Source: Actinomycetota bacterium | GTDB lineage: Bacteria; Actinomycetota; Coriobacteriia; Anaerosomatales; Anaerosomataceae | Assembly (NCBI GenBank): GCA_009773565.1 | Contig: WSXY01000002.1 | Location: 62,001 to 126,000, forward strand | Reading direction: 5' to 3' | DNA: 64,000 bases | Shown here: piece after piece, positions 25,905 to 44,340 of the stretch | Layout: every line of letters starts with the position of its first letter | Numbering within the stretch: position 1 is the stretch's first letter | The notes under the pieces: generated by a model | The model's input: the letters and a program-made list of their open reading frames with translations, nothing else | Told to the model about the DNA's origin: nothing | The model's database searches: none | Made by a program: the position numbers and the translations under genes

Positions 25905-25942
25905 GATCTCCACCTCCGCCGCACTGCACATACACTCGCGAC

Positions 25943-26617
25943 CTACATCTGGACCGATTGAACTGAGAGCAACCCTTCGGTTCCAGAACCTATGTCAGTC
26001 AGATACCATTTGCCGCCGATGAACCGAAGCGGCACCACGATCGTGTGTTCGGAGACAAGACCTGCGTCTACCCATCGCACGACAGAGTACCCGTAGTATA
26101 CCGTGCTACTGGCCACCGTGAACACGCCTACCGAGGACTGAACGTTAGAACTCGATATTTTCGGGTAACCGGTGGCAAGGCTCTGGATGAACGCGGCGTC
26201 CATGGTCTCATCAGGTGCGAAGAGCGTGCCGAGTTTCGCAGCATCGTTCTTAATGATGGCTGCCATCGCCACATCAACCACGGACTTGAGCTCATCAGCG
26301 TTGTCCAGGACGACTTTCTTGGTCTCCGCGAGATACGCATTCCAGGCAGATCGTTCAGCTGCCGTCATTGAGTCGGCACCTGAGTCGGTCACCTTTCGTG
26401 CGAGACCCTCCGGCGGCCGAGGCTTGTCCACGACTTTGCGTGCATTCACCGTGCTAAGTGTTGCACTACTGCTGGGGGCAACAGCGCCCCGAACAGCACT
26501 TCCGAGTTCCGTTGCCGGCGTCGGGGTCGCCTTTGGTCTGCGGGCAACACTGAAAGATCCCACCGCAATAAGTGCGACGGCGACGAGGCCAATCATCCAG
26601 TAGTTCCGTGCACGCAT
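25943..26617 (-). CDS. single-pass membrane-anchored protein of unknown function
   Basis: A 224-aa protein with a short N-terminal cytoplasmic part, one transmembrane helix (about residues 7-24), a Pro/Ala/Thr-rich linker (to about 75) and a C-terminal alpha/beta domain. The domain contains MTAAERSAWNAYLAETKKVV and WVDAGLVSEHTIVVPLRFIG, somewhat like small extracytoplasmic NTF2-like or DUF4878-type folds (low certainty). It lies 38 bp upstream of the 15-heme cytochrome in the same direction, so it may help its export or anchoring. AAGGGTGAT precedes ATG 26617. Confidence 0.6.
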   Translation of the reverse strand: MRARNYWMIGLVAVALIAVGSFSVARRPKATPTPATELGSAVRGAVAPSSSATLSTVNARKVVDKPRPPEGLARKVTDSGADSMTAAERSAWNAYLAETKKVVLDNADELKSVVDVAMAAIIKNDAAKLGTLFAPDETMDAAFIQSLATGYPKISSSNVQSSVGVFTVASSTVYYGYSVVRWVDAGLVSEHTIVVPLRFIGGKWYLTDIGSGTEGLLSVQSVQM

Positions 26618-26642
26618 CTACCGATCACCCTTCCGATGATCT

Positions 26643-26747
26643 AATCCTTCATAAGGATTGTCGGCCGTAACAGCACCGTTCATTAGGGTCGAAATTTGAG
26701 AAGTGTGTCCTGTGTCACAGATCCCGTACGTTCTGCGTGCGTACGGG
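26643..26747 (-). promoter_or_regulatory. leader with hairpin and operator-like palindrome
   Basis: Upstream of the gene starting at 26617 there is a perfect hairpin AATCCTT-cat-AAGGATT (26643-26659). Further out, an 8-bp inverted repeat CCCGTACG (26723-26730) / CGTACGGG (26740-26747) has a 9-nt spacer, suitable for a dimeric repressor. The minus-strand word CCTAATGAA near 26685 is shared with the region upstream of the 2711-2998 gene. The functions are not known. Confidence 0.35.
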
Positions 26748-26805
26748 GTAGTGGGCGTCGTGTCGAAGGTGAATACATACACGAGGATCCAACTTCGATA
26801 ATCGG

Positions 26806-26835
26806 TTGCGCTTCCGCGTGGGGCGGTGATAGTAT
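26806..26835 (+). promoter_or_regulatory. putative promoter of the initiator tRNA gene
   Basis: TTGCGC (26806-26811), an 18-nt spacer and TAGTAT (26830-26835) end 28 bp before the mature tRNA. Matches to the sigma-70 consensus are partial. Confidence 0.45.
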
Positions 26836-26863
26836 GACGAGCCGCGTCGCGAGACGCTCATAG

Positions 26864-26940
<77 letters not shown>

Positions 26941-26951
26941 AAGAAACCGCA

Positions 26952-26990
26952 GGTCGGGAAGGCACATCGCCTCCCGGCCTGTATTCTTTG
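26952..26990. terminator. bidirectional terminator between tRNA-fMet and the 8-heme cytochrome
   Basis: AGGTCGGGAAGGC (26952-26964) pairs with GCCTCCCGGCCT (26970-26981), with one bulge and a G:U pair. It is followed on the plus strand by GTATTCTTT and on the minus strand by TTTCTTT a few bases further. Confidence 0.75.
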
Positions 26991-26993
26991 TCC

Positions 26994-28109
26994 CTACGGT
27001 AGGCCCGCCTGAGGATGGCAGTTCAGGCACAGGTCGTCAGTCTGCGCAGTCGTGTCTGCCTCGACGAGCATGCGGAATCCCTGTGCTTCGTGGGGGAAGT
27101 TCTGGAAGCGCGGGTTGTCGGCCGCATTGCGTCCATCGCCGCCAACAGGGAGAAACGTAGCTGTAGACTCGCTCGGGGTCGCCTGCGTGCCGCTCGCGGT
27201 GAGATCGCCGACGTACCGCTCATCTTCGTGGCACTGCTGGCATATGGGGAGGTGCCCGGCTTGAGCGTCCGTGCGCGGGAATGGCATCAGGTAAGCCCGA
27301 TTATATGAGGAGAACTGTGTATTGATTCCGGCAGCGCCGATGGTGGTTTCGCTTGTCGGATATGGGCCGGGTCCGATGATTCCGAGGCGGCGATAGTTGT
27401 ACGGTGCCGCGACCGTGGCAGACGCTTCGACGGGGTGATTCATGACAGCCGGCAGGCTTGACGAACGGCCCTGGTGGCAGGCAAGACACCAATCCGAGCC
27501 ATACTCGGCCACGGCGGTCGTCACTCCACCCGGCCGCTGCTTGAGTAGGCGGTTTGAAGTCCCCACAGGGTACAGGCCGCCTTCAGGCATCCGCTGGCGT
27601 TCGCCGAGGAACGGGGTGACGCAGTTCTTGGCGTGGGGAGAATGGCAATCGCTGCAGGTGAGCGTGGAGTTCGGTCCCGAGAATGCCATGGGGACACTGC
27701 CTCCGGTTGACGCGCTGCCACCGGGCACCATCGAGGTCGTCTCGATCTTGTGCTGGCCGCCCACCGGGAGCCCGCGCTGTGCGATGGCGCCGTACACACC
27801 TCGTCCCGCAGTGCCGTCGTGACATACCTGGCACGCGGCTTTGACGGTCTCGCCGAGCAGGAGGCTATTGGATGTCGGAGCATCGTGGAGCGTGTGGCAG
27901 ACCTTGCAGACCTTCGTGCCGGAGCTGTAGCCACCGTGCGGTCCGTAATTGACACCCGGTATGCCAACGCCTGAGATGTGGCAGGTGACGCCGCAAATTC
28001 CCGCGCCAGTCCATCCAGTCTCGTTGTACGCGAAGGCGTTCGATGCCCCACCGACGTACATGACCGTCAGAGCCACCACTGTGAGAATCGTGAGTATGCG
28101 AGCTTTCAA
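26994..28109 (-). CDS. secreted 8-heme c-type cytochrome with one CX3CH site
   Basis: A 371-aa protein with a signal peptide (MKARILTILTVVALTVMYVG, cleavage near AFA/YNE) and seven CxxCH motifs: CKVCH, CQVCH, CSDCH, CLACH, CQQCH, CLNCH and one further in the same series. The first potential heme site, CGVTCH at residues 39-44, has three residues between the cysteines. TTG 28109 is used, with GGAG 6 nt upstream. The gene is divergent from resB/ccsA, the System II cytochrome c maturation genes, which supports heme attachment outside the membrane. It is likely an electron-transfer partner of the 15-heme protein. Confidence 0.87.
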   Translation of the reverse strand: MKARILTILTVVALTVMYVGGASNAFAYNETGWTGAGICGVTCHISGVGIPGVNYGPHGGYSSGTKVCKVCHTLHDAPTSNSLLLGETVKAACQVCHDGTAGRGVYGAIAQRGLPVGGQHKIETTSMVPGGSASTGGSVPMAFSGPNSTLTCSDCHSPHAKNCVTPFLGERQRMPEGGLYPVGTSNRLLKQRPGGVTTAVAEYGSDWCLACHQGRSSSLPAVMNHPVEASATVAAPYNYRRLGIIGPGPYPTSETTIGAAGINTQFSSYNRAYLMPFPRTDAQAGHLPICQQCHEDERYVGDLTASGTQATPSESTATFLPVGGDGRNAADNPRFQNFPHEAQGFRMLVEADTTAQTDDLCLNCHPQAGLP

Positions 28110-28146
28110 GTGGGGCTCCAGGCGATCGTGGGTTGAGCACGCTGCA

Positions 28147-28175
28147 AATATAGCAACGCGAGGGTGTCAGAGCAA
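28147..28175 (-). promoter_or_regulatory. putative promoter of the 8-heme cytochrome gene
   Basis: On the minus strand TTGCTC (28175-28170), a 17-nt spacer and TATATT (28152-28147) lie about 38 bp before the TTG start. Confidence 0.55.
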
Positions 28176-28240
28176 ACCAGCGGAGGCCCCGACGCCGGAT
28201 CGAGCTGAAGGCACTTGTCTTGCTCCTGTGCATCGACCGC

Positions 28241-28246
28241 TATACT
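28241..28246 (+). promoter_or_regulatory. possible -10 box of the resB-ccsA operon
   Basis: TATACT lies about 58 bp before the preferred resB start. Upstream TTG-containing hexamers sit at non-ideal spacing (15 or 20 nt), so the call is tentative. Confidence 0.4.
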
Positions 28247-28303
28247 GAAGGGCATAGATTGTATCTCGCGAGGCTGCGGACATATCGTGGCCTCGAGTGG
28301 AGA

Positions 28304-29713
28304 ATGGTGGCGCGTGGATTTGGAATCATCGACTCTCGGATACGCACGGTGAGCAGAATCTACGGATTTCTTCGCTCCCGTCGCCTTGCGGTGTGGTTGA
28401 TCGTTCTTTTCATCATCTATGTGGCGATCGGGTCGATCGTCCCTCAAGGCGATCCCGGATCGTCCGCAGTATCTACATGGGTCGCGGGGCATCCCATACT
28501 CGCAGCGATCGCAATTCCCCTCGGCCTTAATCACGCGTACTCTACGCCTTTCTTTTTGCTACTCCTGGCGGTCTTGATGCTGAGTACGGGCGCATGCGCG
28601 TGGGAGCGTACACGTCGTGTTTGGCTCAGGACTCGCCGAGATGTCGCCTCGACGAAACGTGTAGCGGACCGGTTGCGGGACAAGCCTACCTTTGTGATAC
28701 CTGTTGAGAAGCTGGGTGCATCCGACGTGGCCTCCGCGTTCAAGTCGCTGCGGATGCGAACAACTCCTGGTGATGAAATCACCGAGGCGCGTTCCGGCCG
28801 CTTGGGTACGCTCGGCAGCCCCATCTTCCATTGGAGCCTGGTCTTGCTCTTCCTCTTCGTTGGGCTAGGTCAGCTAACGCGTTCAGAAGGCCTGATGGGA
28901 GTTGTAAGCGGCAGCTCGAAGCCGGATGTGGAGGCATCATACGGAGTCCTCACGACAGGACCCCTCCACGGCGCCATGAGCGGACGGCTGATCGCTGTGA
29001 CCGGGATCGAGCGGTCGTTCTCGGCCAACGGACTTACGCAGGGGCCGACGCCGTTCATCGAGTTGCGCGATGCAGACGGCACGTTGCTGAAGGCTGATTA
29101 TGCGTACTCGAATCATCCGTTGCGGTATAGGTCGACGTTCATCCACATGAATGCAGACGGACTCGCGGCCGTGGTCAGTGTCGGTTCTGCGGGATCGATG
29201 GGACAGTCCGAGGTTCTCATCGACTATGCCGCGGAGTCGCCTACCGGCGTGCAGCCCACAATGGTGGCCTTCAGTAATGCGCAGGGTGTGCCCATCGCTG
29301 ACGTCGTATTCGATCTTCCACCGAGTGCCGAGAATACGGTTGCGGTCGCCGTACGCTACGCACCTGTCGGTGGCCTCACGGGTCCCGATGCACGCGAGGT
29401 GGTCCTCACGCCCGGGGGGAGCGTTGCGCTTTCCGGCGACGTGGTGCTCAGGATCGATCGGCTGACAAGTTATGCGCGCCTCTCTGTTGTCGATGACTGG
29501 TCGGTCGCGTACATATATATATCGTTCGGGCTTGCGCTCCTCGGCCTGATGCTTGCTCTGTTCGTCTCGCCGCGCACACTATGGGTCACTCGGGTAGAGA
29601 CTGAGTCGGGAGCCGCGCTGCATGTACTTGTTCGACACGCACGAGGCGATGCAGCGTTTCCGACGCGGACGGAGAACGCATTCCGGGCGTCCGTCGATTC
29701 AGAAGGGGCATAA
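28304..29713 (+). CDS. resB: ResB/Ccs1-like cytochrome c biogenesis protein
   Basis: About 469 aa with the ResB layout: two N-terminal transmembrane helices (SRRLAVWLIVLFIIYVAIGS and the helix containing PFFLLLLAVLMLSTGACAWE), a third near SPIFHWSLVLLFLFVGLGQL, a large periplasmic or extracytoplasmic domain, and a final helix near SVAYIYISFGLALLGLMLAL. With CcsA it forms the System II heme-handling complex that attaches heme to CxxCH motifs. The start is uncertain: ATG 28304 and GTG 28349 are both possible, and an extension to 28220 is unlikely. It is 3 bp from ccsA. Confidence 0.85.
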   Translation: MVARGFGIIDSRIRTVSRIYGFLRSRRLAVWLIVLFIIYVAIGSIVPQGDPGSSAVSTWVAGHPILAAIAIPLGLNHAYSTPFFLLLLAVLMLSTGACAWERTRRVWLRTRRDVASTKRVADRLRDKPTFVIPVEKLGASDVASAFKSLRMRTTPGDEITEARSGRLGTLGSPIFHWSLVLLFLFVGLGQLTRSEGLMGVVSGSSKPDVEASYGVLTTGPLHGAMSGRLIAVTGIERSFSANGLTQGPTPFIELRDADGTLLKADYAYSNHPLRYRSTFIHMNADGLAAVVSVGSAGSMGQSEVLIDYAAESPTGVQPTMVAFSNAQGVPIADVVFDLPPSAENTVAVAVRYAPVGGLTGPDAREVVLTPGGSVALSGDVVLRIDRLTSYARLSVVDDWSVAYIYISFGLALLGLMLALFVSPRTLWVTRVETESGAALHVLVRHARGDAAFPTRTENAFRASVDSEGA

Positions 29714-29716
29714 CAC

Positions 29717-30556
29717 ATGACTGCCACGGTAGAGATCCTCTTGATGTGGGCCACGGTGACCGCATATGCGCTGTCGGCGGCACTGTTCGTAGTGAGCATC
29801 ATCTTCAAGCAGGACACGATTTCGAGAATCGCGCTTGGCATGACTTGCGCGGGGGTCATCCCACACGTCGCCGCAATCGTCGGTCGCTGGGTCAGAATCG
29901 GGCACGGTCCGTACATCGGTTTCTATGAGGTCGTATCCTCGTACGCGCTGATCGGCGTCGTTATATTCATCGCTCTTGCGCTCGCCAGAAAGCCGTTCCG
30001 GGCGTTCGGTGTAGCGCTCATGCCGATGGCGTTCCTCGCCCTTGGGGGTGCGATGCTCGCTTCGAAGACCGAGGTAGCGATCACGCCCAACCTGGCGAGC
30101 TATTGGTTGGTGGTACACGTCGCGTTCGCCAAGCTGTCGTACGGCTCGTTCATCACGGCGACCGGGTTGGCGATCGTCCACATTCTTCGGCTGAGCAGGC
30201 GCGAGGTGAAGGGTGACGGGTTCTTTGCGAGCCTGACGCCCGAGTCCCTTGATGACCTCACAGCCAAGTTCGTCAGTGCCGGTTTTGTCTTTCTCGGCAT
30301 CATGATCGCGGCAGGTGCGATCTGGGCGAACGAGGCCTGGGGACGCTACTGGGCCTGGGACCCGATCGAGACCTGGTCGCTCGTATCATGGCTTGTCTAT
30401 GCGGTCGTCTTGCACCTTCGACGGACGATGGGGTGGGTGGGCAAGCGGTTCGCATGGATCACCATCGCGGCCTTGCCCGTGCTGCTCTTCGCGCTCATCG
30501 GCGTCGTCATCGTCTACGAGTCGATCCATGGGGCGTATCTGCTTATCGGCGGCTGA
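29717..30556 (+). CDS. ccsA: CcsA/ResC-type cytochrome c assembly protein
   Basis: A 279-aa protein with about eight transmembrane helices and the tryptophan-rich heme-binding motif WGRYWAWDPIETWSL. Conserved His residues are in AYW-VVHV and near the end (ESIHGAY). It works with ResB in System II cytochrome c maturation, needed for the two multiheme cytochromes nearby. Its TGA stop directly abuts that of the convergent ATPase gene at the palindrome TGATCA. Confidence 0.92.
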   Translation: MTATVEILLMWATVTAYALSAALFVVSIIFKQDTISRIALGMTCAGVIPHVAAIVGRWVRIGHGPYIGFYEVVSSYALIGVVIFIALALARKPFRAFGVALMPMAFLALGGAMLASKTEVAITPNLASYWLVVHVAFAKLSYGSFITATGLAIVHILRLSRREVKGDGFFASLTPESLDDLTAKFVSAGFVFLGIMIAAGAIWANEAWGRYWAWDPIETWSLVSWLVYAVVLHLRRTMGWVGKRFAWITIAALPVLLFALIGVVIVYESIHGAYLLIGG

Positions 30557-33082
30557 TCAACTACTCTTCGCGTACGTGCGCATGTCCCCCGCGGTCGCGA
30601 GGGCGTGACGCACGCGCGCGAGAAGGATCTCGCGGCGCACGGGCACGTGGAAGAAGTCGAGAGCGCCAGCCATGAGCGCCCGCACCTCATCCGCCGGGTC
30701 GGTGCTGGCCGAGTAGATCACGAGCGGAACACTGAAGTTGCGTGCGGTCTCGTTGAGCAGCCCGAAGCCGTCCATGAGCGGCATGCGGAGATCCGACAGC
30801 ACGAGGTCGAACGTCCCACGCTCAAGAAGCCGGACGGCCTCCACGCCATTGCGCGCGATCGAGACGCTCAGCCCGGCCGACGTGAGTGTCGACTGGAGCA
30901 GTTCACGGTTATCCTCGGCATCATCGACGAGGAGGATCGAGGTTGCTTCGGGGTTGTGGGTGGCGGAAGCGAGGGCGATGCGTCCTGCCAGAATCTCCTG
31001 GTCATCCGCAAGTCCCGCGGCGAGCGCCGCTTCGACGGTGAGCCGGCCCGCAGTGAGCGCCTCGAGCGCGACCGATCCGAGGATCTTTGTGTCGGCGTCC
31101 TGAAGCGTCGATCGAATCTCCGCCGGCGTGGCCCCTGAGGCGATCTGCTCGCGCAACGCGTCCGTGAGCACGAAGACCTCGAAGATGCCCGTACGACCCC
31201 TGGATCCGGTGCCCCTGCACGTTGTGCAACCCGCCGGGTCGGCAACCTGCACGTCAGGGGTTACGCCGAACGGCGAGAGCATTGCTTGTTCCTCGACGGT
31301 GAGCGTGCGAGGGCTTGAGCACTCGGGACAGGGCAACGGTGCGATCCGAACTCCAACGAGGCACAACAGGCTTGCGGCGAGGCGAGGACGAGCGATGCCA
31401 AGCGCTTCAAGCGCGGAGATCGCCGAAGTCGCGTTGGACGCCGTGATCGTCGCGATCGCGAGGCCCGTCTCGTCGAAGCGCAGGATTGATCGGGCGCTTT
31501 CGGCATCACGGATCTCGCCGACGAACAGCACATCCGGTTCCTGGGAGATGATCGATGAGATGACGGAAGGGTACGTCGCGCCGTTGGGCTCGTCGACGCT
31601 CTGCTGATGCGTGAAGGGAACGCGGAACTCTATGGGGCTTTCGGCAGTCGTGATGCGCCTGCCCGAGGGCCCGAGCATCGAGAGCACCGTGTACGCGGTG
31701 GTCGTCTTTCCGGATCGAGGTGGCGCAGCGACGATGATGAGGCCCTGGCGAGCGGCGAGGCACGATGCGAGCATTTCCGCTTGCTCGGGCAGCATGCCAA
31801 GGTCGGCCGATGTCTTTGGCGGGACATCGGCGCGAATAAGACGGAGGCTCATCGCCTCGCCGTATGCCGAAGCCGCAGTCGTGACTCGAACCGCATAGCG
31901 GGCGCCTGCGATGACGACCTCGAATGCTCCGCGTTGTGAACGGCGACGTTCGTTGATGTCGAGACCAGCGAGGGCCTTGAACCGGGAGAGCGCCATCGAT
32001 GTCTGTTCGTGCGAGACCATGAACGCTTCATGAACGACATCATCGATGCGGTAGCCGACTGACACGCCCTCGGCTTTCGGTTCGAACTCGATATCCGACG
32101 CGCCGTCCGCCTCTGCCGCCGCGAGTGCGTGATCGGCGAGGAAGGCGGGCGGTCGCATACCGAGCTCCCGGGCGCCGGGGCGTGGCGCTCCGGCCCGTAA
32201 CCCGACCGCTTCGGGGTCGATCGTCAGCAGTGTCCCGCGCTCAGATGGCGCCTCTCGCTCGAAGACATCGCGAATCGTGCCGGGAGAGGCGACGAGGAGC
32301 GTGTACGAGTCGGTTCCGGATGCGCGCTCAAGTGTATCGATGAGGTCCCAGTTGAACGGGTTGGCGACCACAAATGCAGCGCCGACTGCCTGGTTGTTAA
32401 TGGGCACGACGAGGTTCGTCCGGCAAAAGGGCGTAGGCAGCACGCCCAGCTGGATCTCGCTCGAGATGACCCGCGGGAGGAAGCCGACACCGAAGAATCG
32501 CGCCACAAGCTCGGCAATCCGTGCTTCCCCGACGCCGGTGCTCTCGGCGAGCGAGTAGATGGTCGCCGGAACGACCGCGGTAACCGCTGGGGCGGCCTGC
32601 TCGCCGAGTTCCGCGACAAGCGTCTCCTTGAATGTGGCGAAGTCTGCAGGCGTGACTCGCTCCGTCCAGCCGGTTCGCGAGGTGCCGATTGCGGCAAAGC
32701 GCGCACCCGTATTGAGATGGCGCTCTACCGCGGCGACAAGGGTGTTACCGGCGAAGGGCTTCGTCACGTAGTCGACAGCACCGGCTGCGAACGCGCTCTG
32801 TCGGTCGTGTTCGCCGGTGAGCGCCGTCAAGAACACGATCGGTGTACCCTGCAGGTCGGGGATCGACAGCATCTCGGTAGCGACGGCGTAACCGTCCATG
32901 CCGGGCATCATCGCGTCGAGAAGCACCAAAGACGGTCGGTTCTTCACCGCGAGGCGCAATGCGTCTTCACCGTTCTCGGCGGTGATGACTTCGTATCCGG
33001 CGGTGCCAAGTGTGATTCGGACGATCTCCAGGATGTCGCGATCGTCGTCGACGCTCAGAATGACCGCATGTGCCGCTTCCAT
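30557..33082 (-). CDS. receiver - MshEN - GspE-type ATPase - receiver protein with decayed catalytic motifs
   Basis: An 841-aa protein. The first receiver (about 6-122) has Asp56 and Lys108 intact. A MshEN/GspE N-terminal-like domain (about 165-275) contains ELVARFFGVGFLPRV. The GspE/PilB ATPase core (about 305-690) has Walker A altered to APPRSGKT (453-460), a Walker B region ending VGEIRD (521-526) and two CxxC pairs (CPEC, CTTC). The second receiver (about 714-835) has Asp764 but a Val where the conserved Lys should be. The His of the His box is lost (TITASNATS near 545-552). The ATPase is therefore probably weak or inactive, and the last receiver is a pseudo-receiver. It is a paralogue of the protein at 41656-44340 and may act as its regulator or partner. 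Confidence 0.8.
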   Translation of the reverse strand: MEAAHAVILSVDDDRDILEIVRITLGTAGYEVITAENGEDALRLAVKNRPSLVLLDAMMPGMDGYAVATEMLSIPDLQGTPIVFLTALTGEHDRQSAFAAGAVDYVTKPFAGNTLVAAVERHLNTGARFAAIGTSRTGWTERVTPADFATFKETLVAELGEQAAPAVTAVVPATIYSLAESTGVGEARIAELVARFFGVGFLPRVISSEIQLGVLPTPFCRTNLVVPINNQAVGAAFVVANPFNWDLIDTLERASGTDSYTLLVASPGTIRDVFEREAPSERGTLLTIDPEAVGLRAGAPRPGARELGMRPPAFLADHALAAAEADGASDIEFEPKAEGVSVGYRIDDVVHEAFMVSHEQTSMALSRFKALAGLDINERRRSQRGAFEVVIAGARYAVRVTTAASAYGEAMSLRLIRADVPPKTSADLGMLPEQAEMLASCLAARQGLIIVAAPPRSGKTTTAYTVLSMLGPSGRRITTAESPIEFRVPFTHQQSVDEPNGATYPSVISSIISQEPDVLFVGEIRDAESARSILRFDETGLAIATITASNATSAISALEALGIARPRLAASLLCLVGVRIAPLPCPECSSPRTLTVEEQAMLSPFGVTPDVQVADPAGCTTCRGTGSRGRTGIFEVFVLTDALREQIASGATPAEIRSTLQDADTKILGSVALEALTAGRLTVEAALAAGLADDQEILAGRIALASATHNPEATSILLVDDAEDNRELLQSTLTSAGLSVSIARNGVEAVRLLERGTFDLVLSDLRMPLMDGFGLLNETARNFSVPLVIYSASTDPADEVRALMAGALDFFHVPVRREILLARVRHALATAGDMRTYAKSS

Positions 33083-33157: not shown

Positions 33158-34357
33158 TTAGGTGAGCGGTAGATCCCAGATACGCCACTTCTTGTACTCG
33201 TGACCGCCCATGAACTCAGATGCCCGGATGATAAGGTCGTTGTTCTCAAGCAGGAGCGATGCGTCGCACGACTTGTAGCCATGCTCTTGTGTGTATGAGA
33301 GCACCTCTTCGAAGAGGAGCGCATCGGTGCCGAGTTTCCGGTAGCCGGGCAACACGCCGAAGAACATCAGCCTGACCCTTGGAATAGGCTTAGGAGTCGT
33401 AAGCAGACGTGCGATGCGAACGTAGTCGGAGTCGCCGTACCATTTCCAGCGCGGGCGTAGCGCGACGTTGGGGTCAGGGAAGCAGCCGAGAACCGCGATC
33501 GGTACGCCGTCGTGGTAGGCGAATCGGATGAGCTCGGGGTCGATGATCATCTTGAGCGCCTCGACGAGCGCATCTGCCTCCCAATCGGTGATCGGCAGGA
33601 AGCCCCAGTTCTCGGCCCACGCCTGGTTGTAGATCTCGATGATGAGTTTGACCTCGGCCTCGAGGTTCTTCATGACGACGGGCCGGGTCGTGATTCCACC
33701 GCGTTTGCGCACACCGGTCGCGATCCGGGTGAGCCGTTCGTTCGCCGGCTTCGTGAGGTCGATGAGGTACGCGACGTAGTCCTTTGTCTTTTGGAAGCCG
33801 TACCGCTCGATGAACTCCGCGTAGTACGGCGGGTTGTAGGTGTGTTCAACGTAGACATCCTGATCGAATCCCTCGATCAGGCACGCCTGACGCTCGTGGG
33901 TGATGTTCGAGTACTCGCCAGGCCCGCGTAGTATCTCGGCGCCGTGTGCCTTGCACCAGTCGCGCGCTGCATCAAGGAGCTTCTCGGCAACGGCGTACTC
34001 TTCGATGACCTCGAAGAAGCCGAAGAAGCCGAACTTGCCACCCCAGCCTTCGTCGATGCGCTCATTGACGACGGCCGAGACACGCCCGACCGGCTCGCCG
34101 CCACGGTACGCCATGAAGTGCGTCGCCTTGGCGGTCCTGTGATAGGGGTGATCCGGCGTCAGCAGCCCCTGCATGCCGAGCAGCTTATTGCCGAGGAGGT
34201 CGGCATCGAGCTGTGGCGTCCAGTGCGGGTTCCCCTTGTAGAGGCGATACGGGAATCGAACGAACGCTTTCAGGCGCGGGTCGCCAAGGGGGATTTCGAT
34301 GATCTCTAGAGCCGGTCGTGTGTCGTGTGTGCTTGAGCCGCCTCGTGTGTCCGCCAT
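33158..34357 (-). CDS. GNAT-like acetyltransferase family protein (YghO-like)
   Basis: A 399-aa protein resembling the uncharacterised YghO-type family: FPYRLYKGNPHWTPQLDADL near the N-terminus, GGEPVGRVSAVVNERIDEGW (a GNAT beta-strand pair), a central FGFFEVIEEYAVAEKLLDAA, RGPGEYSNITHE, and a second GNAT-like half with LMFFGVLPGYRKLGTDALL. The substrate is unknown. ATG 34357 with GGGGA upstream is preferred over a frame to 34501 that would overlap the divergent acyltransferase gene. It lies 75 bp upstream of the receiver-ATPase gene on the same strand. Confidence 0.7.
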   Translation of the reverse strand: MADTRGGSSTHDTRPALEIIEIPLGDPRLKAFVRFPYRLYKGNPHWTPQLDADLLGNKLLGMQGLLTPDHPYHRTAKATHFMAYRGGEPVGRVSAVVNERIDEGWGGKFGFFGFFEVIEEYAVAEKLLDAARDWCKAHGAEILRGPGEYSNITHERQACLIEGFDQDVYVEHTYNPPYYAEFIERYGFQKTKDYVAYLIDLTKPANERLTRIATGVRKRGGITTRPVVMKNLEAEVKLIIEIYNQAWAENWGFLPITDWEADALVEALKMIIDPELIRFAYHDGVPIAVLGCFPDPNVALRPRWKWYGDSDYVRIARLLTTPKPIPRVRLMFFGVLPGYRKLGTDALLFEEVLSYTQEHGYKSCDASLLLENNDLIIRASEFMGGHEYKKWRIWDLPLT

Positions 34358-34485
34358 CGTCCCCGCGTTCGCCTCCCGGTGGTTGCGCGTCGTCGAAACG
34401 AGCGTAGCAGAAGCAGGAGTGGGTCGCACAAGAGAGACTGATACACTTACCTGGTCGTCGTGACCCGGAGGGAGGCCGTCCACGC

Positions 34486-35376
34486 GTGGATTTCGAGTCA
34501 CTCTCCAATAGCAGGCTCGGTATCGGCCTCGCGCTTACCGTCAGTCGCGCGATGCCGCAGGCGCCCGGGTATAGCCTCGCGCGCGCGGGCGCGAGGCGTC
34601 TTGCCGCGAGTCCGGATTCGCCACTGGTGCGCGCGATTCGCACGAACCAGTGGATGGCGTCAGGCCGAACGCTTGCCGGCCCCGCGCTCAACGAAGCCGT
34701 TCGCGAGACGATAGAGATGAGCGGACGCTTTCTCTACGACATCTACCACCTCCCGAAAGATCCCGCAGCGCTCGTGCGCATGGTTGCCGTCGACGACGTC
34801 TTCGAGCGGTTCCTCGCAGAGACGTCGAACGGCCCGCGCGTCGTCGTCGGCGTCCACTTGGGGAACTTCGACCTGGTGGGACAGGCGCTTGGCGCCTCGG
34901 GTTTTCGCGCGCAGGTGCTTTCGGTGGCGGACCCCAACGGCGGATACCAGTGGCAGAACGAGATGCGCGCGAGAAACGGCCTCGATATGACCCCGGTGAC
35001 CATCGAGTCGCTCAAGCGTGCGGCCCGACGACTTGCCGACGGGGGTACCGTCCTGACGGGTATCGATCGGCCTGTTCCCGGTTCCGAGCACCGACCGCGG
35101 TTCTTCGGTGCGCCTGCAAACGTGCCGCTCCTGCACATTCGGCTCGCAATGCGCGCCTCTGTGCCGGTCGTGGTCATCTCGGCGATGAAGCGCGAGGACG
35201 GACTCTACGAGTTGCAGGCATCAGAGCCGCTTGCGATGACGGGTTCGGTCAAGAGCGCCGACGACGTGCTTGCCAATGCCGAGCGTGCGCTGAGAGTTGC
35301 CGAGGAGCTGATCACCCGCTCGCCCCGGCAGTGGGTCATGCCGCATGCAGTCTGGCCCGATCTACAGGCGCCATAG
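34486..35376 (+). CDS. LpxL/PatA-like lysophospholipid acyltransferase
   Basis: A 296-aa protein with the acyltransferase motif HLGNFD (H-x4-D) near residue 123 and the later block GGTVLTGIDRPVPGSEHRPR. These are typical of the LpxL/HtrB superfamily, which in actinobacteria includes acyltransferases that acylate phosphatidylinositol mannosides. It is GTG-initiated and 30 bp upstream of a CDP-alcohol phosphatidyltransferase, then a patatin-like gene, so a phospholipid or glycolipid role is inferred. No glycosyltransferase is adjacent, so the acceptor is not known. Confidence 0.75.
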   Translation: MDFESLSNSRLGIGLALTVSRAMPQAPGYSLARAGARRLAASPDSPLVRAIRTNQWMASGRTLAGPALNEAVRETIEMSGRFLYDIYHLPKDPAALVRMVAVDDVFERFLAETSNGPRVVVGVHLGNFDLVGQALGASGFRAQVLSVADPNGGYQWQNEMRARNGLDMTPVTIESLKRAARRLADGGTVLTGIDRPVPGSEHRPRFFGAPANVPLLHIRLAMRASVPVVVISAMKREDGLYELQASEPLAMTGSVKSADDVLANAERALRVAEELITRSPRQWVMPHAVWPDLQAP

Positions 35377-36946: not shown

Positions 36947-37084
36947 GAACGCCGACCACGGGCATACCGCTTGTCGCTGGATTTCGACCGCACTAGCACA
37001 TCGCCGTTAGTTCGCTCTACCATGGGGTCATAGGTAGGTGTGACTTTGCGATGTGCGATGCACGTCGCGATGATGGGGAGGATC

Positions 37085-40000
37085 ATGGGAGCGCTCCTGA
37101 GCACCGAGAACGACTACCTCCTCTTCCTGGCGGGTATCGGCTTCCTACTTGTCGCGATGCAGGCGTATAGCCTTCGGCGCGTGAGCGATCGCTCGCTGCC
37201 GTGGGAGTATTTGTCGGCATTCGGGCTCGTCTTGACGCTCGTCAGTTGGATGAAGACGGTGGCGCTTGTATACCTGCCGCCGGAGCCCGTTTCCGTGGGC
37301 GCCTATCTACTCGCAGCGGTCGCCTATCTTTGTCTTGTTGAGTTCTGGCGTACCGGAGCTGCACGCCTCGGCAGATGGACGCAGTCGCCGTTGATCCTCG
37401 TTCCGCCGCTTATCCTGGTGGCGCTGGGAATCAGCACCGGACAACTTGGCATCGCCATCGCCGTTAACTACCTTCTCGGTATTGTGGCCTGTAGCTTTGC
37501 GGCATACGTCATGTTGGCGCAAGCGCGTCGAAGCGGCGCGGCGGGTCGGCCTCTCGTTATCTCGGCGGTCGCGCTTGGTGTGTACGGGCTCCTCGGCATC
37601 TTCTCGGAGCCGACTGCGCATGTCTTTCCGCTCAGTGTCTTCAACGCCACGACTTTTGAGTCGATCGTCGGAATCAGCGCACAGGCGCCACGCACGTTCG
37701 CGATACTTTTGTGCGGATGGCAACTCGGCAGCTATGTTCAGGTGCGGACGTCCGAGATGCTTGAGCCGACGGTCAAGCGCGACTATGCCCGGCTTCGTCT
37801 GCTGACGACCGCTGTGCTGCTCTTCTCGTTCGCTGTGGGCTGGGTGGCTACGAGCTTCCTCGGAAACGTGGGACTGCGAAACGAGACGGAATCGATACTC
37901 GTCCATGCGCGGGTTGCCGCCGCCGCTGTCGATGTCAAGCCGGTGAGCATGCTCAGTGGTGTCCGGGCAGACAGCATGACGAACGCGTATCTCACGGTTC
38001 AAACCCGGTTGAGTGCCATCCTTGCCGCAGATCGCAAGGACACCTACCTCTACCTGATGACGCTGCGGGATGGCAAGGCGGTCATCATGGCCGAGGGCAC
38101 CCCGGTCTCCTCTGCTGATACGGCCGAACCTCCAGGGACGCCCTACGAGGATGCGAGTCCCGAACTACTCGCGGCGTTCGAGCAGCCTCGCGAGTTCGTC
38201 GAAGGCCCGCTATCTGATGAGTTCGGCACCTGGTACTCGGCGTTCGTGCCGGTGAGAACCGCTGACGGTCGGACGATTGCATTGCTTGGCGTAGACCGTC
38301 ATGCATCTTCCGTCTCCACGGTTGTGGCTAAGGCGCGCATGAATGGCGTCTTGTTCAGTCTGGTGATGAGTCTTCTCATACTGGGTTCCTATATGGCGGC
38401 GCAGATATCACGTACGTGGGCAGCAAACGTCACCTCGACAGAACGTCGCTTCAGGACGGTCTTCGATAATGCCCCCGAGGGTATCTTCATCATGGCCCTC
38501 GCGGACAGGCGCATTCAGGAAGCGAACCCGTACATGTCCAGCTGGCTGGGCTATCCGCTCGACCAGGTCATAGGCATGGATGTGACTGAGTTGGTGGTTG
38601 TCGGTCTCGATGGAATCTCGTCATGCCTCGCCTCGCTTGAAGAGGGTGCCACCTCGGTCAGCCACGAGTGCGTCTACAAGACGGCCGATGACCGACGCGT
38701 CGATGTCGAAGTCACAGCCGTGCCGATGAGTTACGAGGGCAAGGAGTGCGTCCTCGTGTTCGCGCGTGACATGACTGTCCGCAAGCAGGCGCAGGATGCG
38801 ACCGAGTATCGTGCGCGCTTCTACGACATCGTCAGCGATATCTCGACCGGCTTCATCAATATCGAGCCCGATCGTGTTGATGAGGGTGTCGATCGCGCAC
38901 TTGAGCTTGTGGGCAGGTTTGTCGATGCGGACCGCGCGTATGTCTTCGAGCTGAATGACGGGCGCGACCTCATGAGCAACACGCATGAGTGGGTGCCGCT
39001 GCTGGCACTGTCGCGCAAGAGCAGCCTTCACAACGTCGAGGTCACGCGGTACCCGTTCATTATGGAAATGCTTGCACGGGGTGAGCACGTTGTCGTGTCT
39101 GACATACGCAGCGACACCCGTCTGTCCGACACTGAGCGAGCGCTTCTCTTGGCTGAGGGAATGAAGTCGCTCGTCGCGGTGCCGATGCAATGGCGAGGCG
39201 AGTTCATCGGGCTTCTCGGCTTTGACTCGGTTTCCCGCGAAGCGGCCTGGACCGATGATTCCGTTGTTCTTCTCCGTATGGCGGCGTTCTCCATCGTGAA
39301 TGCCCTTGAGCGCAAGCGAACGAACACCGAGGTGCGCCGGTTGACCACTGCGCTCGAGCAGAGCCCCGTCGGCGTTGCGATGACCGACACAACCGGAGCG
39401 ATAGAGTACGTCAACCAGAAGTTCATGGGCCTCACCGGTTACTCGCTTAATGAACTCCGCGGTAGGAATCCACGGATCCTCAAGTCGGGGATCACACCTG
39501 ATGAAACGTACCGAGCATTGTGGGAGACGATCACCGCGGGCAATGAGTGGCGTGGCGAGTTCATGAACCTGCGCAAGGACGGGACGACGTTCTGGTCCTC
39601 GGCGACGATCAGCCCGATTCGTGATTACACCGGACTCATTCAGCATTTCGTATGCGTCCAGGAGGACGTAACCGCGATCAAGGCGGCCGAGGACGCGATG
39701 CGGGCGGCGCAACGCGCTGCGGAGGACGCGAACCGCGCCAAGAGCGAGTTCCTGGCCTCAATGAGCCACGAGATACGTACGCCGATGAATGCCATCATCG
39801 GTATGGCTGAACTGCTCGAGGAGACCGAGCTTGCACCTGCGCAGAGGCGGTACGTGGATATCTTCAAGTCAGCCGGTGAGGCTCTCCTTACGCTCATCAA
39901 CGATGTGCTCGATCTGTCGAAGATCGAGGCCGGCAAGCTTGAGATCGAGGAGATTCCGTTCGACCTTGCGGATCTTGTCGAACGGACTGTGACCGTTCTT

Positions 40001-41320
40001 GGCATTCGCTCTCGCGAGAAAGGCGTGGAGCTGCTCGCGCGTGTCGCTCCCGGGACGCCGACGAAACTCAAGGGCGATCCCGACCGCCTGAGGCAGGTCC
40101 TGACCAACCTCGTGGGCAACGCCATCAAGTTCACCGATGACGGTGAGGTGCTCGTTACGGTCGAGATGGGCCGCGAGGTCGAGGGCCTCGAGGACGGCTT
40201 TGAACTGGCCATCTCGGTAACGGATACCGGCATCGGTATTCCTGCCGAGAAGCAGCAGACGATCTTCGAGAGTTTCACGCAAGCCGACTCATCGACAACC
40301 CGACGTTTTGGCGGCACCGGGCTGGGACTGACGATATCGCGGCGCCTCGTCGAGCTCATGGGCGGAAGGATTGGCGTCACGAGCATCGAGGGCCAGGGAA
40401 CGACATTCCACGTCAAGCTTCCTGTGAGCCGGGTCGACGCATCAGAGGCCGTACCCGAGCGCGGACTTGCGCGGCTCGACGGATTGCGCGTCTTGGTGGT
40501 CGATGACAATGCAACGAACCGGCTCATCGTCGAAGAGATGCTTGCGGCGTGGGGCTCGGTCGCCGATGCCGCCGAGGACGGTCCGGGCGGTCTGGACAAG
40601 CTTACGCGGGCGTTTGTCGCTGGAACGCCATTTGACGTTGTGGTGCTCGACAATCGCATGCCCGGAATGGACGGGATGCAGATGCTCGCGATCATGCGCG
40701 AAGATCCACTTCTCGCCGAGACGGGAATCGTGCTGCTCTCCTCAGACGCAGTCTCCTTGTCCGGACGGTTGCGCGAACTTGGCGTGAGCGACTACCTGAT
40801 GAAGCCGGTGAGGCGAACCGACCTCCACGACGCCATTGCTGCGGCCGCGGGATCGCGAATAGCACCGCTGGCCCCCGAGGCCGCTGCTTCGAACGTGCAT
40901 GCTGCGGTACAGGTGCCGATGCGCGTGCTACTGGTGGAAGACTCAGAGGACAACCGCTTCCTCCTCCTCGCCCATATGTCCAAGACCCCGCACGAGATGT
41001 TCGTCGCCGAGAACGGCGAGGAAGCGCTGGCTGCGTTCGAACAGGCGAGCGAGCCGTTCGACCTTATCCTGATGGATATGCAGATGCCGATCATGGATGG
41101 CTATGAGGCCACGCGCCGTATCCGTGCGCTCGAAGCGGTGCGTGGCGGGCATACTCCGATTGTTGCACTGACCGCGTATGCACTTAAGGAAGAGGTAAAG
41201 AGAAGTATCGATGCGGGGTGCGACGACCACCTGACAAAGCCGATAAAGAAACAAGTGCTGCTTGAGGCAGTTGCCAGCTACGCGAAGGAGGCGGGAGATG
41301 ACGGACCTGTTGGATCGTGA
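37085..41320 (+). CDS. hybrid histidine kinase with 7TM sensor, PAS, GAF and two receivers
   Basis: A 1411-aa protein. About seven N-terminal helices (residues 10-235) are followed by an extracytoplasmic segment between helices near 250 and 425, then PAS (about 450-570), GAF (about 585-745) and a second PAS/PAC (about 755-870). HisKA has His895 in SMSHEIRTPMNAIIG. HATPase_c shows DLVGNAIKFTDD-type, DTGIGIP and GTGLGLTIS blocks. Two receivers have Asp in VVLDNRMPGMDG and LILMDMQMPIMDG. ATG 37085 has GGGGAGG upstream and is preferred to GTG 37040. The HPt gene overlaps its 3' end by 23 nt. A phosphorelay from the kinase through the HPt to the downstream receiver-ATPase protein is inferred. Confidence 0.93.
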   Translation: MGALLSTENDYLLFLAGIGFLLVAMQAYSLRRVSDRSLPWEYLSAFGLVLTLVSWMKTVALVYLPPEPVSVGAYLLAAVAYLCLVEFWRTGAARLGRWTQSPLILVPPLILVALGISTGQLGIAIAVNYLLGIVACSFAAYVMLAQARRSGAAGRPLVISAVALGVYGLLGIFSEPTAHVFPLSVFNATTFESIVGISAQAPRTFAILLCGWQLGSYVQVRTSEMLEPTVKRDYARLRLLTTAVLLFSFAVGWVATSFLGNVGLRNETESILVHARVAAAAVDVKPVSMLSGVRADSMTNAYLTVQTRLSAILAADRKDTYLYLMTLRDGKAVIMAEGTPVSSADTAEPPGTPYEDASPELLAAFEQPREFVEGPLSDEFGTWYSAFVPVRTADGRTIALLGVDRHASSVSTVVAKARMNGVLFSLVMSLLILGSYMAAQISRTWAANVTSTERRFRTVFDNAPEGIFIMALADRRIQEANPYMSSWLGYPLDQVIGMDVTELVVVGLDGISSCLASLEEGATSVSHECVYKTADDRRVDVEVTAVPMSYEGKECVLVFARDMTVRKQAQDATEYRARFYDIVSDISTGFINIEPDRVDEGVDRALELVGRFVDADRAYVFELNDGRDLMSNTHEWVPLLALSRKSSLHNVEVTRYPFIMEMLARGEHVVVSDIRSDTRLSDTERALLLAEGMKSLVAVPMQWRGEFIGLLGFDSVSREAAWTDDSVVLLRMAAFSIVNALERKRTNTEVRRLTTALEQSPVGVAMTDTTGAIEYVNQKFMGLTGYSLNELRGRNPRILKSGITPDETYRALWETITAGNEWRGEFMNLRKDGTTFWSSATISPIRDYTGLIQHFVCVQEDVTAIKAAEDAMRAAQRAAEDANRAKSEFLASMSHEIRTPMNAIIGMAELLEETELAPAQRRYVDIFKSAGEALLTLINDVLDLSKIEAGKLEIEEIPFDLADLVERTVTVLGIRSREKGVELLARVAPGTPTKLKGDPDRLRQVLTNLVGNAIKFTDDGEVLVTVEMGREVEGLEDGFELAISVTDTGIGIPAEKQQTIFESFTQADSSTTRRFGGTGLGLTISRRLVELMGGRIGVTSIEGQGTTFHVKLPVSRVDASEAVPERGLARLDGLRVLVVDDNATNRLIVEEMLAAWGSVADAAEDGPGGLDKLTRAFVAGTPFDVVVLDNRMPGMDGMQMLAIMREDPLLAETGIVLLSSDAVSLSGRLRELGVSDYLMKPVRRTDLHDAIAAAAGSRIAPLAPEAAASNVHAAVQVPMRVLLVEDSEDNRFLLLAHMSKTPHEMFVAENGEEALAAFEQASEPFDLILMDMQMPIMDGYEATRRIRALEAVRGGHTPIVALTAYALKEEVKRSIDAGCDDHLTKPIKKQVLLEAVASYAKEAGDDGPVGS

Positions 41321-41636
41321 GGAGCCGGCGGATGACCGCCCGGTCGCGCACGTCGATCGAACGCTTGAAGAGCTTATTCCGCGGTTCCTTGAGCGCCGAC
41401 GCGAGGACGTTGCGACAATTGAGAGCCTCGTAGGCTCCGGCGACTTCGAGACCATCCAGTCCATGGGTCATTCGATCAAGGGTTCGGGAGGTGGCTACGG
41501 ATTCGATCCCATCACCGATTACGGCGCTGAGATCGAGGCCGCGGCCAGAGAGTGCGACGGAGCCGCTACCATCGTGGCGGCGCGTAGGATGCGAGCCTAC
41601 ATCGACGTGGTGAAAGTCGTCTTCGTCGATGAGTAG
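41298..41636 (+). CDS. HPt domain phosphotransfer protein
   Basis: A 112-aa, mostly helical stand-alone HPt protein. The phospho-accepting His58 lies in SMGHSIKGSGGGYGF, the canonical HxxKG motif. ATG 41298 is preceded by GGAGGCGGGAG inside the end of the hybrid kinase gene, with a 23-nt overlap. The next gene begins 19 nt after its stop. It would move phosphate from the kinase's receiver domains to those of the downstream ATPase fusion. Confidence 0.9.
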   Translation: MTDLLDREEPADDRPVAHVDRTLEELIPRFLERRREDVATIESLVGSGDFETIQSMGHSIKGSGGGYGFDPITDYGAEIEAAARECDGAATIVAARRMRAYIDVVKVVFVDE

Positions 41637-41655
41637 GACGCGGAAGGCAGATCCT

Positions 41656-44340
41656 GTGAAGGTATCTCCGGAAATCACCATTCTGAGCGTGGACGATGAT
41701 GCTGATATTCGGGATCTGGTAGGAACGATTCTTGGCGATCGCGGGTATCGCATTCTGACCGCGGCAAGCGCCACAGAGGCACTGGGAATCCTCGCAGACA
41801 GGCCGGTCGACCTCATCCTGCTCGACGTCATGATGCCGGAGGTCGATGGCTACATGTTCTGTGACGCGGTCCAGGAAGCAGATCTGGCGCCGCTCACGCC
41901 CATCATCTTCATGACGGCACTCAGCGAGGCCGGCGACCGTGCGCGCGCGTTCAGTTGCGGTGCGGTCGACTACATGGTGAAGCCGATCTTGCGCGAGGAT
42001 CTCGTCGAGAAGGTTGAGCACCACCTTGCGACGGCGAGCAACTGGTGCGATATCGACGAGCATGAGCCGTGCGAGAGCGACGATGCCGCTGTTGATGATT
42101 ATGTGAGGTTCCGGGACCAGATCGCCCGGGGCTTCGAAGCCGATTCCTCGCAGCGAGCGGCCGTTGTTGCAATGCGTCCGGAAGAGGTCTATCTCGTCGG
42201 CAGGGCAGTCGGCATCACTCCCGACAAGATGGCTGAAAGCATCGCCAGGTTTCTCTCGCTTGAGTACATGTCATTGATCGACGTGAGCACCGTCGCGTTG
42301 GGGACGCTTCCCATCGCGTTCTGCCGCAACAATCTCGTGGTGCCTGTTGCGACGCCTGACGCTCTGATCTTTGTGTTTGCCAACCCGTTCAACTGGGAGA
42401 TCGTCGACATCGTTCAGCGGCACGCTCCGAGCGAGCTGCCGGTCAAGATCGCGGTCGGGGATCCGGATGCCATTCGCGCTCTCTTCCGGCAGGGTGGGCT
42501 TGAGGCTCGCTCCGTAGAAGAGCCCGCGCAGGAGGCTGAAACGCTCTCAGAGCAGCAAAGCGCCTCTGATGACTCCACCGTCTCCGCGGCTGATATGGAA
42601 TCGCGACCGATCGTCTTTATCGCAAACAGCCTGATCGCCTCGGCGGTTCGTGAGCGGGCGAGTGATATCCATATCGAGCCGAAAGAGTCGGTGTGCCACG
42701 TCAGGTTCCGTATCGACGGTGACATGCGCGACATGATGACGCTGAAGCGACAGACGGCGCACATGCTCGTCTCGCGCCTCAAGGCGATCGGCGGTCTCGA
42801 TATCGCCGAGCATCGGCGGCCGCAGGACGGCATGGTGGAGACGACGGTCGCCGGTAAGCGGATCAAAATGCGGCTTGCGACGACTTCGGGGCCGTACGGC
42901 GAAAGCATGGTCATCCGTATTCTCGACACCTCGACCACGCCGAGTACGCTACAGGAACTCGGAATGACCGCGGATCAGGCCAAGCGCCTCTATGGCTACG
43001 CCGAGCGTGCCCACGGAATGATTCTCGTCGTGGGCCCCACGGGCTCCGGCAAGACGACAACGCTCTACAGCGTCTTGTCCAGCATTGACGCTGACCGTCG
43101 AAGCCTCATGTCGGTTGAGGACCCGGTCGAGTACGTCATTCCGCGCGCCAACCAGCAGCAGGTCAACGACAAAGCTGGCGTTACTTTCGAGAACCTTCTC
43201 AAGTCCTCGGTGCGCCAGGATCCCGACGTGCTCTATCTTGGTGAGATCCGCGATCAGTTCTCGGCGCGCACGGGCCTCGACTTCGCATCGACTGGTCACC
43301 TGACAGTCACAACGCTGCACACGTCGAACGCGACCACCGCCATCTTCCGGCTCGAACGCTTGGGTATCGAGCGCGGAATGATGGCCGACGCCGTGCTGTG
43401 TATCGTGGCGCAACGACTTCTCAAGCGACTGTGCCCGCTCTGCTGTTCGGTTGCGCCCATCACCGAGGAGGAGCGGGCTCTGCTTGAGCCGTTCACCGAC
43501 GAGATACCGCCCGAGGTCGCGCATCCGGTCGGTTGCCCCGAGTGCCGTGAGGGATATCGCGGACGTGTTGGTGTCCAGGAGGTACTCGACTTCGATCGTG
43601 ACGTAGCGAACTGGATCCGAGATGGCATCCCTGTGAGCGATATTCGGCGTCGCGTACGCGCGCGTGGATCATACCTGCTGACTGACAGCGCAATTGACAA
43701 GGTGCGCTCCGGTGATCTGTCGGTCGCCGATGTGTACGAGCGTGTTCTTGTTGAAGAGGAGCCTGCGGGCGACACCGCTGCCGCGGAACCCAGGCCCGTC
43801 TCAGCGCTGTTCCAGCAACTCGATAGTGAGGCGCTGATCGGTCAGAAGTGTGCCGGGGCACCCGACGCTGCGGCTACCTTTCCCCGTCCGTGGGGGTCAA
43901 CGCCGACAGGCGCGTCCGATGAACCCGGGGACGGGGCGTCAGATGAAATGCTCATCGGGGCGGCCGAGGCGCGTCACCGACTGCGTGTGCTCATCGCCGA
44001 TGACGATCCGCCAACCAGAGATCTTCTCGCATCCGTTCTGAGCGACGCGGATTATGACGTATCGCTTGCCGCTGATGGCGTGAGCGCACTTGCTCGCGTT
44101 CATGAGCAGCCGTTCGATCTCATCCTCTCCGACGTCAATATGCCCGGTCTCGATGGGCTGGCGATGCTCGACCAGCTACTCCGCGAAGGAATCACCACGC
44201 CCGTGATCATGCTGACCGGTGTTGCGGACGGCGAGTCAGAAGCATCGGCGCTGCGGCTCGGCGCCGTGGACTTCATTCGGAAGCCGGTGCGCAAAGACGT
44301 ACTATTGCTCCGCGTAAGGCGGATACTGGAGCACCGCTAG
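41656..44340 (+). CDS. receiver - MshEN - GspE/PilB ATPase - receiver fusion
   Basis: An 894-aa protein. The first receiver (about 6-122) has Asp57, Thr87 and Lys109. A MshEN-like domain (about 170-280) contains IARFLSLEYMSLIDVSTVAL. The GspE/PilB ATPase (about 310-700) has Walker A GPTGSGKT (460-467), Walker B ending LGEIRD (528-533), His-box TTLHTSNAT with His555, and the Asp-box region RASDIHIEP. Zinc-type cysteine pairs CPLC and CPEC follow. The second receiver (about 770-890) has Asp826 and Lys retained in FIRKPVRK. All catalytic elements are intact. GTG 41656 has GGAAGG 8 nt upstream; an ATG at 41629 lacks such a site. It is probably the output of the phosphorelay encoded just upstream, driving a pilus or type II secretion-like machine encoded elsewhere. 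Confidence 0.88.
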   Translation: MKVSPEITILSVDDDADIRDLVGTILGDRGYRILTAASATEALGILADRPVDLILLDVMMPEVDGYMFCDAVQEADLAPLTPIIFMTALSEAGDRARAFSCGAVDYMVKPILREDLVEKVEHHLATASNWCDIDEHEPCESDDAAVDDYVRFRDQIARGFEADSSQRAAVVAMRPEEVYLVGRAVGITPDKMAESIARFLSLEYMSLIDVSTVALGTLPIAFCRNNLVVPVATPDALIFVFANPFNWEIVDIVQRHAPSELPVKIAVGDPDAIRALFRQGGLEARSVEEPAQEAETLSEQQSASDDSTVSAADMESRPIVFIANSLIASAVRERASDIHIEPKESVCHVRFRIDGDMRDMMTLKRQTAHMLVSRLKAIGGLDIAEHRRPQDGMVETTVAGKRIKMRLATTSGPYGESMVIRILDTSTTPSTLQELGMTADQAKRLYGYAERAHGMILVVGPTGSGKTTTLYSVLSSIDADRRSLMSVEDPVEYVIPRANQQQVNDKAGVTFENLLKSSVRQDPDVLYLGEIRDQFSARTGLDFASTGHLTVTTLHTSNATTAIFRLERLGIERGMMADAVLCIVAQRLLKRLCPLCCSVAPITEEERALLEPFTDEIPPEVAHPVGCPECREGYRGRVGVQEVLDFDRDVANWIRDGIPVSDIRRRVRARGSYLLTDSAIDKVRSGDLSVADVYERVLVEEEPAGDTAAAEPRPVSALFQQLDSEALIGQKCAGAPDAAATFPRPWGSTPTGASDEPGDGASDEMLIGAAEARHRLRVLIADDDPPTRDLLASVLSDADYDVSLAADGVSALARVHEQPFDLILSDVNMPGLDGLAMLDQLLREGITTPVIMLTGVADGESEASALRLGAVDFIRKPVRKDVLLLRVRRILEHR

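Follow-up and report, generated by a model that had tools for sequence, protein, structure and literature searches.

The motors of pili and of secretion systems are generally regarded as engines. For PilB, roles have been assigned to individual residues: H420, the proposed mediator of cooperativity between chains, makes contact with the gamma phosphate and with T411, and the two arginine fingers, R271 and R286, are donated to the neighbouring subunit (PMC5424180). TfpB of Acinetobacter baylyi works with PilB in pilus extension (PMC8213720). Combinations of MshEN with receiver domains have already been reported, as MshEN-REC proteins (PMC5013675), and a receiver missing one or more of the five receiver residues is classed as a pseudo-receiver (PMC12632262). 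A search of the open-licence literature brought up no Rec-PilB protein described as catalytically impaired. Here we describe a candidate for such a protein, the product of gene B, in a 64,000-nucleotide stretch of DNA from a member of the Coriobacteriia (the window), which also carries a paralogue, gene A.

B encodes an intact protein of 841 amino acids with an ATG start and GGAGG a few bases 5' of it (Table 1). Its Pfam domain order, Rec, half MshEN, PilB/GspE-type ATPase (T2SSE) and Rec, is identical to that of A, as the initial annotation had proposed. The T2SSE (PF00437) match has an E value of 6.7e-65 and scores 219.6 bits against a cut-off of 24.9; the corresponding match in A has an E value of 5.1e-106. 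The MshEN match covers Pfam positions 20–82 of 90, the C-terminal part, and the start of the model is unmatched; the criterion for a c-di-GMP receptor is the presence of two N-terminal 24-residue binding motifs. An AlphaFold2 model of B (mean pLDDT 83.7) was compared with known structures using Foldseek and VIA-align 2. Residues 311–695 superpose on PilB of Geobacter metallireducens (5tsh_E; Z 42.3, rmsd 2.4, 381 residues, 29% identity) and residues ~4–128 superpose on receivers. B is a homologue of the T2SSE/PilB-GspE family by descent and fold, and is classed with it on those grounds and not as a motor.

Table 1. Positions in the window of gene B, its domains and motifs, and the genes of its surroundings.
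Feature	Position	Strand	Basis
Gene B: Rec, half MshEN, PilB/GspE-type ATPase, pseudo-Rec; 841 aa	30557..33082	-	
Rec1 of B; five active-site residues intact	32717..33067	-	
MshEN, C-terminal part, of B	32243..32566	-	Pfam
N2D and CTD of the T2SSE ATPase of B	31013..32158	-	Pfam, conservation
P-loop APPRSGKT of B, residues 453–460; first Gly lost, Lys/Thr kept	31703..31726	-	
ASP box AESPIE of B; Mg-binding Glu (PilB E357 equivalent) kept, Asp to Ser	31628..31645	-	
GEIRD of B; catalytic Glu retained	31505..31519	-	
HIS box remnant of B; PilB H413 and H420 equivalents gone	31433..31462	-	
Zinc site of B; C585, C588, C619, C622 retained	31217..31330	-	
Rec2 of B, pseudo-receiver; DD, D, S/T kept, Lys to Val at 30644–30646	30590..30946	-	
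GNAT-family protein directly upstream of B, 75 bp gap	33158..34501	-	
Hybrid histidine kinase (PAS, GAF, HisKA, HATPase, two Rec), A cluster	37040..41320	+	
Hpt phosphotransfer protein; overlaps kinase and A	41262..41636	+	
Gene A: catalytically canonical-looking paralogue of B; Rec, half MshEN, T2SSE, Rec	41629..44340	+	

Homologues were sought in 69 genomes of the order. Orthologues of B, 62–63% identical, are present in three of them (G017, G018 and G019), and looser relatives, 37–39% identical, in two (X_G040 and X_G035, together called X). The close orthologue set is four copies including that of the window, three of them from one genus. A is present in the window genome and in G017, G018, G019, G021, G015, G064, G042 and G043; it occurs without B in G015, G064, G042 and G043, and was not found in the X-bearing genomes G040 and G035. 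The ATPase domains of A and B are only 34–38% identical. In a full-length tree B and X form one clade, and all Coriobacteriia copies together form one clade (100/100 in both cases). The ATPase-only tree places B and X outside all other Rec-ATPase-Rec proteins, a position that is probably a long-branch effect because the N-terminal and full-length trees unite all Coriobacteriia copies. Proteins with Rec-ATPase-Rec organization also occur in Myxococcota, Thermodesulfobacteriota, Chloroflexota, Omnitrophota, Acidobacteriota and others.

Residues were numbered as in G. metallireducens PilB, through an alignment to the 5TSG chain (tag offset 20), and scored on an alignment that also contained A, further relatives and this genome's canonical PilB proteins, across which the residues missing from B are otherwise almost invariant. 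The initial annotation had pointed to changes at three sites, and all three are real. The P-loop reads APPRSGKT in B and GPTGSGKT in A; against the Walker A motif GxxxxGK[ST], each of the four B copies has Ala or Ser in place of the first Gly and retains the Lys and Thr. The general P-loop pattern [AG]x4GK[ST] (PROSITE PS00017) still matches the window copy but not the orthologues (SPHSGGKT, SPARGGKT and SPALGGKT). The HIS box is TITASN where A has TLHTSN, and the loss goes further than had been noted: the equivalents of both H413 and H420 are absent from every B and X copy. In Rec2, HVP stands in place of the RKP of A, the Lys being replaced by V or I in B copies and by L or M in X; the DD, D and S/T of B are retained. 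In addition, the Arg of RQDPD is absent from all four B copies, and the ASP box of B is ESPxE where EDPxE is expected. The two X copies have a canonical P-loop and share the HIS-box and Rec2 losses. Relatives in which all catalytic residues are restored, named beforehand as evidence against a degenerate ATPase, were looked for among the B and X copies on the alignment, and none was found. These patterns suggest that B arose by duplication, within this Coriobacteriia order, of a Rec-PilB-like-Rec signalling ATPase of the A family; the earliest losses would have been those of the HIS box and of the Lys in Rec2, in the ancestor common to B and X, with the first P-loop Gly lost later.

Other parts of the machinery persist. 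The P-loop Lys and Thr, the ASP-box Mg Glu (E357) and the catalytic Glu that follows the atypical Walker B motif are retained in all B and X copies. The zinc cysteines, in two CxxC pairs, are invariant, and the active site of Rec1 (DD, D, T, K) is complete in all copies. The equivalent of R271 is kept in all four B copies and lost in X; that of R286 is Arg in the window copy and His in the three orthologues. The retention of the CxxC pairs and Rec1 thus stood as first described, and GEIRD is indeed present in the window copy, but it reads GELRA in the orthologues of G018 and G019 and is not a fixed motif. B may retain weak ATPase activity, since the P-loop Lys/Thr, E357, catalytic Glu and R271 equivalents are kept. 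The earlier label of pseudo-ATPase is supported for the motor cycle, as no relative has all catalytic residues restored, and tentative for ATP binding or slow hydrolysis.

Selection was compared by NG86, a simple method, mainly on the pair G018 and G019 (dS about 0.7). For the ATPase domain, dN/dS is 0.162 in B (CI 0.119–0.221) and 0.042 in A (0.022–0.068), a B/A ratio of 3.8 (2.1–8.1); the ratio is also 3.8 for G017 against G018. For Rec1, MshEN and Rec2 combined, the values are 0.062 in B and 0.052 in A. Identity follows the same division. Between the window and G018, A is identical at 330/383 ATPase and 216/345 regulatory positions, whereas B is identical at 213/383 and 256/344. In each of the four pairs tested, this contrast runs in opposite directions in A and B, with Fisher p values for B from 1.6e-4 to 1.2e-7. 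The ATPase is the most conserved part of A and the least conserved of B (52–81% among B orthologues), in which Rec1 is best conserved (76–94%). Constraint in B has shifted away from the ATPase domain, towards the receivers and MshEN. In every domain dN/dS of B is well below 1, and the constraint on Rec1 matches that in A. Given the shared losses and purifying selection, B is a conserved pseudoenzyme, its inactivity predicted from its residues, and not a pseudogene.

The GNAT gene precedes B on the same strand, with a gap of ~65–90 bp, in all four B genomes, and A lies ~8–9 kb from B in each, in a conserved arrangement. Both the GNAT-B pair and the linked unit running from LPLAT to the histidine kinase, Hpt and A are retained in G017, G018 and G019. 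A promoter scan gave nothing above chance, and no terminator-like site was found between the GNAT gene and B. The hybrid kinase and Hpt always adjoin A. X genes sit among unrelated genes, with no adjacent Hpt-A unit; G040 and G035 retain a kinase homologue (43% identical) elsewhere in the genome. Within the genome, the receiver nearest to Rec1 of B is Rec1 of A (94.7 bits), and a receiver of a chemosensory cluster is nearly as close (90.1 bits), so this similarity is no decisive argument for a relay in common. The position equivalent to PilB R257 (QDGR) is occupied by M, T, S, A or I in A and in almost every Rec-ATPase-Rec protein, and even A is thus no textbook PilB. At 21639–30556 of the window, large CxxCH-rich proteins (1430 and 371 aa), likely multihaem cytochromes, adjoin the cytochrome c maturation genes ResB and CcsA.

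In the genome of the window, a cluster of CheR-TPR, Rec, CheW and MCP genes encodes an MshEN-T2SSE protein (C12:385044-386783; L191:3045-4784, +). Its P-loop Lys, catalytic Glu and HIS box are lost in 24 of 24 genomes checked, and, across 298 genomes of the class, matches at E 1e-110 or better occur in 58, every one of which belongs to this order; judged by these residues, it is a clearer pseudo-PilB than B. Also in this genome, an open frame reported as 572 aa (C11:81733-83157, -) matches a receiver and T2SSE and is possibly a Rec-PilT fusion. A third paralogue, protein C, consists of Rec, half MshEN and Rec, with the whole ATPase domain absent (L104:12711-14498, +, in G043; L105:11141-12481, -, in G042). 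It lies in the kinase-Hpt-A cluster of both genomes, between kinase and Hpt in G042. In the N-terminal tree C groups beside the A copies of its own genomes (97/93), which argues that its ATPase was lost separately from the changes in B. Homologues from Gemmatimonadota (L128, L131 and L132) have a single C-terminal receiver, Asn in place of the HIS-box His, and altered RQDPD and GEIRD; their HIS-box loss is apparently an independent event.

The reading we favour, at a probability of about 0.6, takes B for a conserved pseudo-motor. Its ATPase domain would still fold and may bind Mg-nucleotide, but could not drive the cooperative cycle of PilB. Rec1, which is intact, would be phosphorylated, possibly via the nearby kinase and Hpt, and the protein would act on a PilB-like machine as a phosphorylation-controlled scaffold or modulator. 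Candidates for that machine are A, a canonical PilB (this genome has three) or another partner. Protein C of G042 and G043 indicates that a receiver/MshEN frame can persist without a motor. In a narrower version, which we hold to be quite unlikely, B would be a phospho-gated pseudo-subunit that enters a PilB-like hexamer, donates its arginine fingers and cannot cycle, forming a brake set by a two-component relay.

Two alternatives tie B directly to A. B might mix into A hexamers as a poison or tuning subunit whose incorporation is set by Rec1 phosphorylation. All four genomes with B proper carry A at a conserved distance, and the Arg equivalents of R271 (four of four copies) and R286 (window copy) match residues that PilB donates to its neighbour. 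We nevertheless consider this unlikely: A occurs in four genomes without B, the two ATPase domains have low mutual identity, and protein C dispenses with the domain altogether. Moreover, mixed hexamers with A cannot account for X, since A was not found in the X genomes. Competition for the relay, raised in the initial annotation, is conceivable because Rec1 is intact and nearest to Rec1 of A. Taken as the whole function, it would make B a phosphoryl sink or competitor in which Rec1 drains Hpt and the ATPase part is a mere frame. Rec1 is indeed complete and the most conserved domain of B, but the chemosensory receiver is almost equally close, X copies have no adjacent Hpt-A unit, and purifying selection on the ATPase (dN/dS 0.16) exceeds the needs of a mere frame. 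We regard this role, too, as improbable.

The remaining alternatives concern the ATPase itself. An active, divergent ATPase with its own catalytic arrangement would fit the finding that no B or X copy departs from the P-loop Lys/Thr, the Mg Glu or the catalytic Glu. Such an enzyme is made doubtful by the absence from all B copies of the HIS-box pair, of the Arg in RQDPD and of the P-loop Gly, by the change of R286 to His in three of four, and by a dN/dS for the domain about four times that of A. Early decay of the gene is highly improbable. Constraint on the ATPase is relaxed relative to A, but all four copies are intact with synteny retained, dN/dS is well under 1 in all domains and Rec1 is constrained as in A. 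Simple decay is rejected on the same observations, in agreement with the initial view of the gene.

If B is a conserved pseudo-motor, its lineage has retained the frame of the engine, under selection and wired to receiver domains, with the residues of the cycle removed. Related losses arose separately in the same order, in the ATPase-less paralogue and the order-wide dead PilB, and apparently in Gemmatimonadota. The PilB fold would then be a reusable signalling scaffold, and a motor annotation for every PF00437 protein would be wrong in these groups.

With the PilB/GspE extension ATPases (5TSG, 5TSH, 5ZFR and 4KSR), B shares the N2D-CTD fold, the zinc Cys, the P-loop Lys, the ASP-box Glu and the catalytic Glu. 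In contrast to them, it lacks the HIS box, the RQDPD Arg and the first P-loop Gly, and carries a Rec at both ends with only the C-terminal part of MshEN. The Rec-PilB-like-Rec proteins (A; L112–L118, L129, L135 and L136) have the same domain order and belong to the same tree family, but retain the HIS box, P-loop and Rec2 Lys. Set against the MshEN-REC proteins, as far as the accessible part of that study describes them (PMC5013675), B differs in its degenerate PilB-type ATPase and in having the C-terminal part of MshEN alone. Compared with pseudo-receivers (PMC12632262), Rec2 of B keeps the Asp and acid pair, so it may still be phosphorylated. Like TfpB of A. baylyi (PMC8213720) and PilU, B is a divergent motor paralogue that exists alongside a principal one; unlike them, it is predicted from its residues to be catalytically impaired, and it lies outside any pil operon.
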